The translations under genes and the position numbers were made by a program. DNA of 64,000 nucleotides from Caulobacter sp. RHG1 (GTDB lineage Bacteria > Pseudomonadota > Alphaproteobacteria > Caulobacterales > Caulobacteraceae). Shown here in pieces: positions 15,058 to 20,098 of this stretch. The stretch is from positions 124,001 through 188,000 of the forward strand of contig NZ_SMZP01000003.1 of NCBI RefSeq assembly GCF_013181195.1, given 5' to 3'. Each line of letters begins with the position of its first letter. The first letter of the stretch is position 1. The notes beneath the pieces were generated by a model. That model saw only the letters and a list, made by a program, of their open reading frames with translations, searched no databases and was not told where the DNA came from.

Positions 15058-16014
15058 TTACTTTTCCAGGGCCTGTTCAAACCGATCCAGCACCGCCGAG
15101 CGCGACTCGAACACATAGTCCGGGCGCGACACGGTCACCGGCTCGACGCCGGCAGCCGCCAACGCCGCCGCCGCATCGAACAGATCGCCGGTCGCCAGCA
15201 GCGCGCCATTGGCGCGGCGCGAGCCGCCCTTGGCGACGAACGCCGCCACGGCCGACTGGCCCGCCGCATCCTGCTCGGCCGGCCAGACCAGGGTCGCCAG
15301 CTTGCCGGCGCGGCCCTTGGCCTCGACCACCGACAGCAAACGCTGCAGGGAGCCGAGCTGTTCCGGCGTCCAGGTCGTCAGCAGCGAGGCGGTCAGCTGG
15401 GCCTGGCTTTTCAGGATCACGCCGTCCGACAGGATCTTCAGGCCATTGGCCGCCAGGGTCGCGCCGGTGGTGGTGATGTCGACGACCAGCTCGGCCGCGC
15501 CGGCGGCCGGGGCCCCCTCGGTGGCGCCGCTGCTCTCGACGATGCGGTAGTCGGCCACCCCGTGACGGGCGAAGAAGGCCCGGGTCTGGGTGACATACTT
15601 GGTGGCCACCCGCAGGCGGCGGCCGGTCTTGGCGAGATGGGCGTGCCCGACCTCGTCGATATCGGCCATGGTGTCGACGTCCAGCCAGCTCTTGGGCGCG
15701 GTCACCACCAGGTCAGCGCGGCCAAAGCCCAGGGCCCGCAGCAGCATGACCCGGCTGTCCATGTCGTCGCCGCGCTCGCGCAGCAGGTCCTCGCCAGTGA
15801 CGCCCAGGTGCAGGTCGCCGCTATCCAGGCCCGCGGCGATGTCGCCGGCCGACAGCAGCCGCACCGACACGCCGGGCAGGCCCGACAGCTCGGCCGAATA
15901 GCCGCGCGCGCCGCCGGTCATCTCCAGCTTGAAACCGCAGTCGGCCAGCCAGGCCTCGACCTGGTCCTTCAGGCGGCCCTTCGAAGGAATGGCGAAGATC
16001 ATAGGGGCGCTCAT
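15058..16014 (-). CDS. hisG: ATP phosphoribosyltransferase catalytic subunit
   Basis: This enzyme joins ATP and PRPP in the first step of histidine synthesis. The 318-residue protein has the core FAIPSKGRLKDQVEAWLADC, then LLSAGDIAAGLDSGDLHLGV and the PRPP-binding loop VVDITTTGATLAANGLKIL. Short-form HisG proteins that work with HisZ are usually around 200-230 residues; this one has about 90 extra residues at the C-terminus, not clearly the ACT-like domain of long HisG. The start ATG overlaps the hisZ stop (ATGA), which indicates coupled translation. It is the last gene of hisS-hisZ-hisG and its regulation is likely set by the leader at 18706-18786. Confidence 0.95.
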   Translation of the reverse strand: MSAPMIFAIPSKGRLKDQVEAWLADCGFKLEMTGGARGYSAELSGLPGVSVRLLSAGDIAAGLDSGDLHLGVTGEDLLRERGDDMDSRVMLLRALGFGRADLVVTAPKSWLDVDTMADIDEVGHAHLAKTGRRLRVATKYVTQTRAFFARHGVADYRIVESSGATEGAPAAGAAELVVDITTTGATLAANGLKILSDGVILKSQAQLTASLLTTWTPEQLGSLQRLLSVVEAKGRAGKLATLVWPAEQDAAGQSAVAAFVAKGGSRRANGALLATGDLFDAAAALAAAGVEPVTVSRPDYVFESRSAVLDRFEQALEK

Positions 16015-17132
16015 TCGCCGCCTCCCGCATAGGCGCGCGCCGGACGGACCATGCAGCCCACCGCGCCGGTGTTGGTCGAAAGGCCCAGCTTGGGCAGCAG
16101 GCCGTCATAGCGGCCGCCAGCGGCCACGGGGCGCTCGTCGCCCAGCGCGGCCGAGCGCACCTCGAACAGCACGCCGTCGTAGTAGCCGAAGGCCCGGCCG
16201 AAGGCGGCGGCCAGGGTCGCGTGGTCCAGGGGCACGCCGCGCTGGGCCATGCCCTCCAGCCGCGACCGCCAGCCGGCGATGGCGGTCTTCAGGGCGCCGT
16301 CGTTGGGACCGGCCAGGGCGACGATGGCCGACAGCGCCGCGTCCGGACGGTCCGACACGGCCAGGAAGGCGCGAATGCGGTCGGCTTGCTCCGGATCGAG
16401 ACGACCGGCCTTGGCGGCCTCGGCGCGCTCGACCAGGCGGCGGGCGATCTCGGCTGGACGGCGGCCGCCGACGGGCTCGATGCCGGCCAGCGACCACAGC
16501 TCCTGCAGCACCTGGGCGGCTTCCGCCTCGGGCAGGCCCGCCAGCAGGGCGGCGATGCGCGACTGCTCACCGGACAGCGGCGCGGCGGCGTCGCCGTCCA
16601 GCTCGGCCTTCAGCTGCCGCGGCTTGGCGAACGACCGCTTCAGGCGCGCGGCCAGCGGGGCGGCAAGGTCCAGGCTGTCGACGAAGGCGGCGAACAGCGA
16701 GACGTCGCCGAGGATCAGCGACAGGTCGGTGCGCCCGCCGGCGGCCGAAGCCGCCCAGGCCAGGGCCGCGATCTCGGCGTCGGCGGCCACGGGATCGCCG
16801 GCCTCAAACGCCTCGACGCCGATCTGCAGGAACTCCTCGGCGCGGTCGGTGCCACGTGGGGCGACGCGGAACGCCTTGCCCTCGTAGCGGTAGCGGCCCG
16901 CCTGGTTCTGGGCCCTGGCCACGGCGACGGTGAAGTCAGGCCGCAGGCAGGCCTCCTCGCCGCCGTCGCCGGAGACGACGAACAGGCGCGAGCGCATGGC
17001 CTCGCCGGTCAGGTCCAGCAGCAGGCCCAGGGGCTGCAACACCGGCGCGTCGGTCAGGGTCGCCCCGGCGCTAAGCAGAGGAGCGCGGATGGCGTCGAGC
17101 GCCTCCGCCGGAATGGAACGCTCGAGCCTCAA
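16011..17132 (-). CDS. hisZ: ATP phosphoribosyltransferase regulatory subunit
   Basis: A 373-residue paralogue of histidyl-tRNA synthetase that activates HisG and makes it sensitive to histidine. It shares the class II synthetase core: PDFTVAVARAQNQAGRYRYEGKAFRV resembles motif 2, and AAFGRAFGYYDGVLFEVRSA and GRYDGLLPKLG mirror the synthetase's C-terminal region. It lacks a tRNA-binding C-terminal domain. It begins four bases after hisS and its stop overlaps the hisG start by four bases, so all three proteins are likely made in fixed proportion from one mRNA. Confidence 0.93.
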   Translation of the reverse strand: MRLERSIPAEALDAIRAPLLSAGATLTDAPVLQPLGLLLDLTGEAMRSRLFVVSGDGGEEACLRPDFTVAVARAQNQAGRYRYEGKAFRVAPRGTDRAEEFLQIGVEAFEAGDPVAADAEIAALAWAASAAGGRTDLSLILGDVSLFAAFVDSLDLAAPLAARLKRSFAKPRQLKAELDGDAAAPLSGEQSRIAALLAGLPEAEAAQVLQELWSLAGIEPVGGRRPAEIARRLVERAEAAKAGRLDPEQADRIRAFLAVSDRPDAALSAIVALAGPNDGALKTAIAGWRSRLEGMAQRGVPLDHATLAAAFGRAFGYYDGVLFEVRSAALGDERPVAAGGRYDGLLPKLGLSTNTGAVGCMVRPARAYAGGGE

Positions 17133-17136
17133 GTGA

Positions 17137-18615
17137 TTAGCCCCCGATGATCTTCTGCACGGCGGCGACCAGCTGGTCGCGCGGGATGGTCTGCTGGCCG
17201 GGCCGCTCGGCCTTCCAGGCGGCGTTGTCGGCCAGGCCCTGGGCGGCCATGCGGCCCGCGTCCAGGTCCTTGATGGTCACGGTGCCGGCGGCGATCTCGT
17301 CCCCGCCCAGCATGACCACGGCCGGCGCATTGCGGCGGTCGGCATATTTCATCTGCGGCTTCATGCCCGAGGTCCCGAGATAGACCTCGGCCGGAATGCC
17401 CTCCGCCCGCAGCTGTCCGACCACGGAGAAGTACTCGGGCATGTGCGCCTGGTCGAAGGTGATCAGCACCACCGGCCCGCGCGCGACGCCGCCCGGCTCA
17501 CGACCGGCCGCCCGCAACGCCGCCGCCAGGCGGGTGACGCCGAACGAGAAGCCCGTGGCCGGGGTCGCCGTCCCGGTGAACCGCGCCACCAGGTCGTCAT
17601 AGCGCCCGCCGCCGCCGATCGAGCCGAACGAGACCTTGTTCCCCTTCTCGTCGGTGGTGCTCAGCAGCAGCTCGGCCTCGAACACCGCGCCGGTATAGTA
17701 TTCCAGCCCCCGGACGATCGACGGATCGATGAAGGCCTGGTCGTCGGCGATGCCCAGGCTGGTCAGGGCCGCATCGATCCGCGACAGCTCCAGCAGGCCC
17801 TCGTCGCCCTCGGCCGAGCCGCCGATGACATTGGCCAGGTTACTCAGCGTCGCCGCGCGCCCGCCGGCTCCGGCGGACACGAAGTCCAGCACCGAGTCGA
17901 TCGCCTTGCCCTTCAGCCGCGCGCCCTTGGTGAAGTCGCCGCTCTCGTCCAGCCGCCCCTCGCCCAGCAACAGCCGCACGCCCTCGACGCCCAGGCGGTC
18001 CAGCTTGTCGACCGCGCGCAGCACGGCCAGCTTCTGGCCTGCGCTGTCGGCGCCCGCCGAGGTCAGCAGGCCGTTCAACAGCTTGCGATTGTTGATCTTC
18101 AGCACCGCAGCGCCGCGCGGCAGGCCGGCGGCTTCCAGCCCCTCGACCGCCATAGCGATGATCTCGGCGTCGGCCTCCGGACGGGCCGAGCCCACCGTGT
18201 CGGCGTCGCACTGGATGAACTGGCGGAAGCGCCCCGGCCCCGGCTTCTCGTTGCGCCACACCGGCCCAAAGGCGTAGCGGCGGAACGGCTTGGGGAGGGT
18301 CTCCCAGTTCTGGGCCGCGAACCGCGCCAGCGGCGCGGTCAGGTCGTAGCGCAGCGCCATCCACTGCTCGTCGTCGTCCTGCAGCGCGAACACGCCCTCG
18401 TTCGGACGGTCGCTGTCGGGCAGGAACTTGCCCAGGGCGTCGGCATATTCGAACGCCCCGGTGTCCAGCGCCTCAAAGCCGTAGCGCTCATAGACCGCCG
18501 ACACCGCCTCCAGGATCGCCCGCTCGGCCCGCAGGTCGCGCGCGCGCTTGTCGGCGAAGCCGCGGGGGGCGCGGGCTTCGGGGCGGAAGGTCTGTTCGGA
18601 AGTGTCGTCGGTCAT
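17137..18615 (-). CDS. hisS: histidyl-tRNA synthetase
   Basis: This enzyme charges tRNA-His in the cytoplasm. The 492 residues show class II motif 2 (WRNEKPGPGRFRQFIQCDAD), the His-specific HisA motif (VRGLEYYTGAVFEAEL) and a C-terminal anticodon-binding fold (PVVLITFDQAHMPEYFSVVG and on). It is longer than E. coli HisS (about 424), as seen in the alphaproteobacterial type. A ribosome site AAGGA sits nine bases before the ATG and could be partly hidden in a weak stem (CCTT with AAGG). It heads the hisS-hisZ-hisG operon behind a short His-rich leader, so both the charging enzyme and the pathway's first step may answer to charged tRNA-His. Confidence 0.95.
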   Translation of the reverse strand: MTDDTSEQTFRPEARAPRGFADKRARDLRAERAILEAVSAVYERYGFEALDTGAFEYADALGKFLPDSDRPNEGVFALQDDDEQWMALRYDLTAPLARFAAQNWETLPKPFRRYAFGPVWRNEKPGPGRFRQFIQCDADTVGSARPEADAEIIAMAVEGLEAAGLPRGAAVLKINNRKLLNGLLTSAGADSAGQKLAVLRAVDKLDRLGVEGVRLLLGEGRLDESGDFTKGARLKGKAIDSVLDFVSAGAGGRAATLSNLANVIGGSAEGDEGLLELSRIDAALTSLGIADDQAFIDPSIVRGLEYYTGAVFEAELLLSTTDEKGNKVSFGSIGGGGRYDDLVARFTGTATPATGFSFGVTRLAAALRAAGREPGGVARGPVVLITFDQAHMPEYFSVVGQLRAEGIPAEVYLGTSGMKPQMKYADRRNAPAVVMLGGDEIAAGTVTIKDLDAGRMAAQGLADNAAWKAERPGQQTIPRDQLVAAVQKIIGG

Positions 18616-18647
18616 CGGCGTCGGTCCTTAAATCTTCAAGGCTTCGA

Positions 18648-18751
18648 CGGATGGCGCTTTGCCAAGCCCCATCCGCTAGGCGGGGCTCTGGCTGGGTCGC
18701 TCGGCTTAGAGCGCGCGGACCCGGCCGATCCCGCGAGGCGAGGTCGGATGG
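18648..18751 (-). promoter_or_regulatory. candidate attenuator: mutually exclusive pairing segments before hisS
   Basis: Segment CGGATGG (18669-18675) can pair either with CCATCCG at 18745-18751, inside the leader's CAC-CAT-CCG codons, or with a second CCATCCG at 18648-18654. The second pairing closes a stem of CGGATGGGGC with GCGCCATCCG. A third choice pairs AGCCCC (18682-18687) with GGGGCT (18665-18670). No U-run follows, so the switch may act on translation or through Rho. Confidence 0.6.
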
Positions 18752-18786
18752 TGGTGGCAGCCGTGGTGATGCGGTGCGCGGGTCAT
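18706..18786 (-). CDS. hisL: putative histidine leader peptide of the his operon (26 aa)
   Basis: A short ORF of 26 codons, MTRAPHHHGCHHHP then TSPRGIGRVRAL and stop. It carries six His codons in eight positions (HHHGCHHH), far above chance, and ends 90 bases before hisS on the same strand. This is the layout of a transcription- or translation-attenuation leader: ribosomes would stall here when charged tRNA-His is scarce. There is no ribosome site before its ATG, but a Caulobacter-like -10 box (18795-18802) ends eight bases before it, so it may be translated from a leaderless mRNA. It is too short for ordinary gene finding. The call rests on position and composition. Confidence 0.75.
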   Translation of the reverse strand: MTRAPHHHGCHHHPTSPRGIGRVRAL

Positions 18787-18794
18787 CGGGGCGG

Positions 18795-18802
18795 GGTTTA
18801 GC
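18795..18802 (-). promoter_or_regulatory. candidate -10 element for the his leader
   Basis: Read on the minus strand this is GCTAAACC, which fits the Caulobacter housekeeping -10 consensus (GCTANAWC). It ends eight bases before the leader ATG, so transcription would begin at or very near the start codon. I see no good -35. Confidence 0.5.
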
Positions 18803-18883
18803 CTAGTGGGGCGTGCGGGGGAAGGGGTGAGGAGCTGTCCAATCCAATCGCGGCTCTGAACACCCGATAAGGGTACCGCCAGA

Positions 18884-20098
18884 ATGGCCAAGCTTAGAAA
18901 AGCGCCCTTAGATTGCATCATGGCCAGAAATCCGAACAACCGGCTCGAGCGCTGGGAAATCTCGATCGTGAAAGCGATGATGGCTACGCCTCCCCCCAAA
19001 AACGATCAGGACATTCTCGCCTACTTCACTCGCCCCACACGTTCGATCAATCATGGTCGAAACAAGGATATTCGGGACGGCAAAACTCACACCGGCATCC
19101 CACCCGCATCTCCCGAAGAGCTGGCCGCCTTCCTCGAATCTTGGCCAAACGTTGATGGCAACGGCCTAAATTTGATCGGCGACGAACTGCTAATCAAAGC
19201 GCGAGAAGCAATGCTTCACGCGGTGCAAGGATTCAACAATCCGAGAGCCCACTTCAAGTCTGAAATCTTCATCGTCACCGCTGTGATTGCATGGACTTAT
19301 TTGCTGCACGCACACTTCAAGCGGTTGGGCTTGGACTATCGGTATCGTGACCGCCATACAGGAAACGTACTTCAGACGCGGCACGGTGCGGACAAGCACT
19401 GGGAACTAGAGCAGTGTTTAGGACAAGCCGAGTGCCCGCTAGACGCGCCGACAAAGGCCAACCTCAAATTCCTCATCGGAATTCGTCACGAGATCGAGCA
19501 TCAGATGACGCGCCGAATTGATAACTTTGTCAGCGCTAAACTTCAGGCCTGCTGCCTAAACTTCAACACAGCGCTCAAGGCCATGTTTGGTTCGGAGTAC
19601 GGGCTCGACCGCGAACTCGGGGTAGCACTGCAATTTTCGGGGATAGCTAAATCGCAACGTGATCTCCTACTGAAAGACACCGATCTTCCAGCTCATCTGA
19701 TCGCGGCGCATCTGGCACATGAAGACGACCTACCGGACGAGGTCATCCGAGACCCTAAGTATGCCTATCGCGTCGCCTATGTTGAATTGTCGGTAAACTC
19801 CAAGGGAAAAGCTGACCAAGTTGTTGAATTCATTCGACCAGATTCAGCTGAAGGTCGTGAAATCGCTAGCGTTCTTGTTAAAGAGTCAGAGCGGAAGAAG
19901 CACAAGCCGAAAGATATCGTAGATATCATGAGGACTGAGGGACACCGTCAATTCAACCTGCATGCGCATACGCTTCTCTGGCAAGCAGCGGATGCCAAGA
20001 ACCCGATCCATAAATTCGGCGTAGAACTTCGGCCCGGCGATTGGTGGTGGTACGACAAGTGGCTAGAACACGTTCGGGTTCAACTTGCAGACGGCTAA
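18884..20098 (+). CDS. DUF3644 protein with HEPN-like RxxxxH motif
   Basis: A 404-residue protein of the DUF3644 type. The N-terminal part holds NDQDILAYFTRPTRSINHGR (residues 40-59), the usual lead of this family. The DUF3644 core spans about residues 98-215 (EAMLHAVQGFNNPRAHFKSE and the following helix). Within it R201-H-E-I-E-H206 fits the Rx4-6H motif of HEPN ribonucleases, which are common in toxins and anti-phage systems. The C-terminal 190 residues are unassigned. Base composition is about 50% GC, against roughly two thirds in neighbours, which points to recent transfer. The ATG at 18920 is an alternative start. It is divergent from the his leader. Function is unknown; an antiviral or toxin role is inference. 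Confidence 0.8.
   Translation: MAKLRKAPLDCIMARNPNNRLERWEISIVKAMMATPPPKNDQDILAYFTRPTRSINHGRNKDIRDGKTHTGIPPASPEELAAFLESWPNVDGNGLNLIGDELLIKAREAMLHAVQGFNNPRAHFKSEIFIVTAVIAWTYLLHAHFKRLGLDYRYRDRHTGNVLQTRHGADKHWELEQCLGQAECPLDAPTKANLKFLIGIRHEIEHQMTRRIDNFVSAKLQACCLNFNTALKAMFGSEYGLDRELGVALQFSGIAKSQRDLLLKDTDLPAHLIAAHLAHEDDLPDEVIRDPKYAYRVAYVELSVNSKGKADQVVEFIRPDSAEGREIASVLVKESERKKHKPKDIVDIMRTEGHRQFNLHAHTLLWQAADAKNPIHKFGVELRPGDWWWYDKWLEHVRVQLADG

Follow-up and report, generated by a model that had tools for sequence, protein, structure and literature searches.

A histidine-rich leader and a chain of exclusive helices upstream of hisS-hisZ-hisG in Caulobacter: a probable attenuator that may act on translation

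What does a short reading frame packed with histidine codons do immediately upstream of the gene for histidine-tRNA ligase in Caulobacter, and at which step of expression would it act? In enterics, His-rich leaders with exclusive stems control the his operons, and we take the enteric his leader to be the Rfam family His_leader, RF00514. We analysed a stretch of 64,000 nucleotides from Caulobacter sp. RHG1 (the window), in which the coordinates place hisS 4 nt from hisZ and give hisZ and hisG an overlap of 4 nt. In 16 of 18 genomes checked, hisS, hisZ and hisG lie side by side, and the genes behind the leader all belong to histidine metabolism, as in an attenuator. A 404-aa ORF without NCBIfam match runs divergently from the leader (18884-20098, plus strand). 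The features of the locus are as follows.

15058-16014, minus strand: hisG, ATP phosphoribosyltransferase (TIGR00070, 163 bits)
16011-17132, minus strand: hisZ, ATP phosphoribosyltransferase regulatory subunit (NF008949, 677 bits)
17137-18615, minus strand: hisS, histidine-tRNA ligase (NCBIfam TIGR00442, 387 bits)
18613-18623, minus strand: segment F, CGACGCCGATG, which contains the hisS start codon and pairs with E
18625-18629, minus strand: Shine-Dalgarno-like AAGGA of hisS, within the E:F hairpin (from sequence)
18645-18659, minus strand: segment E, AAGCGCCATCCGTCG, pairs with D or F
18664-18676, minus strand: segment D, GCGGATGGGGCTT, pairs with C or E
18680-18698, minus strand: segment C, GACCCAGCCAGAGCCCCGC, pairs with B or D
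18718-18734, minus strand: segment B, GCGGGATCGGCCGGGTC, pairs with A or C
18738-18747, minus strand: segment A, CCGACCTCGC, starts directly after the last His codon and pairs with B
18706-18786, minus strand: His leader ORF, 26 codons and stop, MTRAPHHHGCHHHPTSPRGIGRVRAL
18748-18771, minus strand: His codons 6-8 and 11-13, the putative sensor, with Gly-Cys in between (from sequence)
18795-18802, minus strand: -10-like box GCTAAACC, 8 nt 5' of the leader ATG (from sequence)
18671-18836, plus strand: match to Rfam RF01528 'CC3513', antisense to the leader (99.9 bits; gathering score 40)

The His-rich ORF before hisS is not a chance occurrence. A preliminary description of this DNA had reported a 26-codon frame encoding HHHGCHHH that ends 90 nt before hisS, and re-reading the minus strand confirmed it at 18786-18706, with 90 nt between the leader stop and the hisS ATG. 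It is the sole eight-codon stretch of the window with at least six His codons, and none of 40 Markov-shuffled windows has any. The -10 box that had been placed 8 nt before the leader ATG is likewise present, and in 77 of 78 relatives a loose hexamer pattern finds a -10-like site that ends 8-12 nt 5' of the leader start. This promoter spacing suggests a leaderless start, with transcription beginning at or beside the leader ATG.

The preliminary description had also proposed looking for conserved His codons upstream of hisS in relatives. Of 390 family genomes searched for HisS, 379 gave a match, and 90 upstream regions were collected from 30 returned loci and a further 60 picked among the matches listed; since these were picked mostly by rank, near relatives are over-represented among the 90. 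The His codons proved to be conserved: 78 of the 90 regions carry a His-rich ORF, which has 4-8 His codons and is 23-26 codons long (30 in one case, counted from an ATG further upstream). The usual form in the genus itself is MTRTPHHHG-x-HHHPTSPRGIGRVR-x-L, where the first x, the middle residue, changes between C, H, R and Q and the His residues are constant, and in deeper branches and other genera the His codons are retained and the remainder of the leader differs. A covariance model built from 72 leader sequences and run on the 390 family genomes (E up to 0.01) matched 208, including 70 of 75 genomes of the same genus (E no higher than 4.4e-10 in each) and, from genus g20, 94 of 101, two of them weakly. 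Some of the 208 are other than hisS leaders, as ten weak matches that were read in g4 and g6 all lie before asd and weak matches in G010 and G278 also lie elsewhere than before hisS. Scanning 84,980 species genomes with a pattern returned 81 stretches: 58 with a His-rich ORF 14-22 nt upstream, 56 of these followed by a recognised hisS, and 23 with neither this ORF nor hisS.

The remaining 12 of the 90 family regions are without a leader. L017 is a natural leader-less case, in which AT-rich DNA replaces the leader promoter and the His codons and the downstream segments remain, and the other 11 (g5, g7-g10 and g21) have, by eye, a -10-like box such as GATCCGCTAA about 10-40 nt before hisS. Among 20 further genomes, the leader was present in 2 (g22), absent in 16 and unreadable in 2. 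On a HisS tree of 39 sequences (L037 was omitted, its fetched stretch being without hisS), leader presence and absence need 8 state changes, at least 2 of them required by well-supported branches, which suggests that the leader is old and was then lost repeatedly. In seven g20 loci (L057, L060, L078, L079, L081, L082 and L083), there is another ATG near the usual hisS start and hisS begins 151-175 nt past the leader stop; these genomes may hold a second short ORF between leader and hisS.

The RNA between the His codons and the hisS start can be read as a chain of alternative pairings. We assessed covariation in a MAFFT alignment (A1) of 72 sequences, the 78 leaders minus L004 and L043 (inserts), L032, L044 and L047 (duplicates) and L088 (without C:D or D:E). 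The helices A:B (inside the leader), B:C, C:D and D:E are mutually exclusive pairwise, and all four covary, with counts that are inflated by sequence relatedness: D:E has 93.8% of cells paired and 18 double-sided cells, C:D 93.2% and 8, B:C 87.2% and 25, and A:B 91.7% and 12, none of 500 shuffles scoring as high for any of them. E:F is the weakest helix of the alignment (84.7% paired, 5 double-sided cells, 12 of 500 shuffles), partly because that end aligns badly. The observed number of pairs with double-sided change was reached by 12 of 500 shuffles for D:E, 44 for C:D, 81 for B:C, 1 for A:B and 220 for E:F. Shifting the partners by 1-3 columns lowered the share of paired cells in A:B, B:C, C:D and D:E to 24-58%. 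Taken singly, the helices of the window sequence have free energies of -10.9 (A:B), -30.0 (B:C), -15.7 (C:D), -21.2 (D:E) and -13.1 kcal/mol (E:F).

These results revise the pairing scheme proposed earlier, in which CGGATGG (18675-18669) would pair with CCATCCG either inside the His codons (18751-18745) or just before hisS (18654-18648). All three motifs are present, and the stem before hisS is D:E, among the best supported helices (18 double-sided cells, 0 of 500 shuffles). The competing stem inside the His codons did not hold up: it shows no double-sided change in 72 sequences and 500 of 500 shuffles reach its covariation score. As a conserved pairing, His-codon CATCCG with CGGATG (89.9% paired, no double-sided changes, 27 C-A cells) was rejected. 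The expectation of exclusive covarying stems is thus borne out downstream of the leader peptide and fails for the His-codon stem; the covarying competitor of D:E is C:D, GAGCCCCGC with GCGGATGGGGCTT, and within the leader A:B competes with B:C. By a simple string search, 74 of 78 leaders contain the CGGG that forms the core of B, in phase 2 in 46, 1 in 6 and 0 in 1 of those from the same genus and in phase 1 in 9 and 2 in 8 of those from g20. Because the core sits in differing codon phases, segment B looks to be kept as RNA, which points to selection acting on the RNA of this segment rather than on the peptide. L004 and L043, from two species, carry palindromic inserts (GGAGCGCGT...ACGCGCTCC) inside the C:D hairpin loop; the core of these inserts is not enriched within the window. 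Taken together, there is good support for the His leader and for the exclusive helices.

How a ribosome on the leader would shift this chain was modelled with folding energies, which are equilibrium values. With a ribosome on one of codons 6-14 of the window's leader, the predicted fold changes from A:B, C:D and E:F to B:C and D:E in most placements. The predicted unpaired probability of the hisS start codon is 0.02 with no ribosome, only 0.09 with a ribosome at codons 6-8, 0.24-0.43 at codons 10-14, and 0.01-0.02 from codon 18 on. In constrained folding of the whole leader across 76 sequences, a stall on His (the better of the middle and last His) relative to no ribosome opened the start by more than 0.05 in 39 and closed it in none, and the last-His relative to the stop placement opened it in 28 and closed it in 8; the effect on the mean is small (0.29 with no ribosome, 0.40 at the middle His, 0.35 at the last His and 0.27 at the stop).

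The effect, modest in whole-leader folding, was clearer in branch folding, which assumes C either blocked or paired and covers 69 of the 76 sequences (7 failed the segment pattern). The median unpaired probability of the start codon rose from 0.06 with C:D to 0.67 with C blocked, the start opening by more than 0.1 in 41 of 69 and closing in 14 (Wilcoxon P = 4e-6), and in the window sequence it rose from 0.01 to 0.96; the Shine-Dalgarno region barely opened (0.36 to 0.40). In 10 of the 76 rows (L049, L055, L074 and seven of g20) the ATG used was out of the hisS frame or failed the check, though a separate reading puts the ATG of L074 in frame with hisS; without these 10, the 59 remaining rows gave medians of 0.06 and 0.71, with 36 opening and 11 closing (P = 6e-6). 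Because the covariation of E:F is weak in the MAFFT alignment, we judged this helix by two other measures, the energy of the hairpin and the pairing of the start codon. Dinucleotide shuffles form a less stable hairpin between E and the start than the real sequences do (mean z -1.64). Pairing of the start codon with upstream bases (>0.5) is predicted in 45 of 69 sequences, compared with an average of 24.1 and a maximum of 31 in 60 shuffled sets.

By the features tested, the hisS leader belongs to the ribosome-mediated attenuators. We consider it probable that it is a histidine-dependent attenuator on the hisS-hisZ-hisG mRNA in which a stall frees the hisS start for translation. Transcription would begin on or beside the leader ATG, with a ribosome loading at the 5' end. 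With ample charged His-tRNA, the ribosome would pass the His codons to the stop codon and C:D could form, leaving E free to pair with F and hide the hisS start codon. A shortage of His-tRNA would stall the ribosome at the second His cluster, the last codon of which abuts A, with that segment covered; B:C and D:E would form, release the start codon in F and allow hisS to be translated. We infer the ribosome positions, the output at translation and the effect on hisZ and hisG, which would come through the operon.

Leaders with a similar plan occur before other genes. In the same genome, a Thr/Ile/Lys-rich leader, MSFAATKIITRKTTRFGGAAGMRAI, lies before asd (L217; G000:C14:368940-369122, minus strand) with the same hairpin plan and a weak model match (E only 0.09), and its CGCTCC can pair with GGAGACG over the Shine-Dalgarno. 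asd leaders were also found in genomes of g6 and g4, presumably Brevundimonas and Asticcacaulis. Thr-containing leaders such as MHRVAHLCTTTTTTTRFGGPDGVVMR precede thrS-type genes in other alphaproteobacteria (L222, L223 and L224), and a T-rich stretch follows the C:D-like hairpin in L222 and L224. Leader-like short ORFs with a C:D-like hairpin lie before GNAT acetyltransferase genes at L180, L202, L214 and L215, and before a fragment without Pfam hit at L177. A class-wide search gave model matches in 7 of 385 genomes, this genome included; of 7 match places outside it, 5 were judged to be leaders and 2 (L225 and L228) chance. The stretch before thrS of the same genome holds no convincing Thr-rich leader. 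At the gathering score, Rfam gave no match in the five sister loci L217, L222, L224, L180 and L202, and the g22 hisS leader L174 also fell below that score.

The output step is the part of this reading most exposed to an alternative. Leader switches mostly act on transcription, and the same His leader and switch could do so through Rho-dependent or atypical intrinsic termination before hisS, caused by C:D or by untranslated C-rich leader RNA. The thrS-type leaders lend this some weight, as their similar hairpin is followed by TTTTTCTTT (L222) or TTTGTCGTTT (L224), and C:D may therefore descend from a terminator. At hisS itself, the absence of a U-run stated in the preliminary description is upheld, the 8 nt after the C:D hairpin averaging 2.3 T over 77 leaders, with 5 T in only one of the 77 and fewer in the rest; the hairpin followed by a U-run that marks an intrinsic-terminator attenuator is lacking there, and a terminator scan of 18300-19200 found no terminator-like site. 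A switch acting on transcription alone would moreover have no use for D:E and E:F, yet covariation is seen in D:E. The related asd leaders carry CTCC before the Shine-Dalgarno GGAG in 19 of 21 loci (the exceptions are L208 and L227). Because of the missing terminator-like site and U-run and the CTCC/GGAG pairing partners of the asd leaders, translation is favoured as the output, in line with the earlier suggestion that control may be at translation, and we regard an output at transcription as unlikely. His scarcity would most likely uncover the hisS start codon rather than halt transcription.

Two further readings dispense with the switch altogether. CC3513, an Rfam family described as a Caulobacter sRNA and modelled on the opposite strand, covers the same stretch of DNA, and the Rfam output makes no link to hisS. 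Were the conserved element a plus-strand antisense RNA, the His ORF would merely be its mirror, and the plus strand does score well, with 99.9 bits in the window and 158.1 bits at the C. vibrioides DSM 9893 locus, where RF01528 again lies opposite hisS. The reading frame, the His codons and the -10-like box, however, are all kept on the minus strand, and wobble cells over the five helices, which are not independent of one another, favour that strand (158 G-U versus 54 C-A; for E:F alone, 7 versus 11). We therefore think it very improbable that the antisense RNA is the conserved element; the CC3513 match is probably the mirror of the leader, or else a true antisense RNA. HHHGCHHH also resembles a metal ligand, and the ORF could encode a His-rich small protein with its own function, for example metal binding, and regulate nothing. 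We give this almost no credence, given that H, R or Q stands in place of the Cys in other leaders of the genus, that the tail conserves its nucleotides across more than one codon phase, and that hisS follows in nearly all pattern-scan loci with the ORF.

Compared with known systems, the nearest likeness is to the enteric his attenuator, where a His-rich peptide accompanies alternating exclusive helices and stalling flips the chain, as set out in the attenuator passages of PMC9413887. The hisS leader shares the His-rich leader peptide and the chain of mutually exclusive helices, but it lies before hisS-hisZ-hisG, its last hairpin sits over a start codon with no U-run at the end, and it appears to start at its own ATG. 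It is outside the intrinsic-terminator type and outside Rfam His_leader, which was absent from the 6 families listed by cmscan for 18300-19300 (E up to 10). PMC9413887 also describes, in general terms, attenuators in which the last hairpin masks the site of ribosome binding, and the output at translation that we propose for hisS would resemble theirs; the main text of that paper does not mention hisS, and its attenuator passages contain no Caulobacterales leader. Naville and Gautheret (2010, PMC2965389) describe His leader peptides of bacilli in front of hisZ and of a hisS paralog, a likeness in that a His-rich leader stands before a hisS-family gene; these are Firmicutes leaders found through premature terminators, and the authors see no likeness between Firmicute and proteobacterial leaders. 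Within Caulobacter, leader CDSs include those of trpS and ilv, one of them before an aminoacyl-tRNA synthetase gene, and a ribosome profiling set was published alongside (Schrader 2014, PMC4117421); hisS does not occur in the main text of that paper, whose 94 new CDSs may include the hisS leader. Our search of open-licence literature found no paper on a Caulobacterales hisS leader and none pairing 'Caulobacter' with 'CC3513'. Going by its title, a work by Lopatovskaya from 2010 quite possibly already lists a hisS attenuator, and for this reason we claim no priority.

Caulobacter is a main model of the bacterial cell cycle. If the attenuator reading is correct, the leader would be a direct sensor of charged His-tRNA in this genus, with control over the tRNA synthetase and, by way of the operon, over the step that opens histidine synthesis, and an Rfam 'sRNA' family would be reinterpreted as the mirror of a leader switch. 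More broadly, we see about an even chance that one RNA chassis with exchangeable sensor codons, leading from a leaderless mini-ORF to an initiation-site hairpin, serves several alphaproteobacterial amino-acid genes, with His for hisS, Thr/Ile/Lys for asd, Thr for thrS-type genes and possibly other codons for GNAT acetyltransferases; a His or Thr stall would then be converted into translation of the next gene. The sister leaders, together with their lack of an Rfam match at the gathering score, suggest that such switches are commoner in alphaproteobacteria than annotated.
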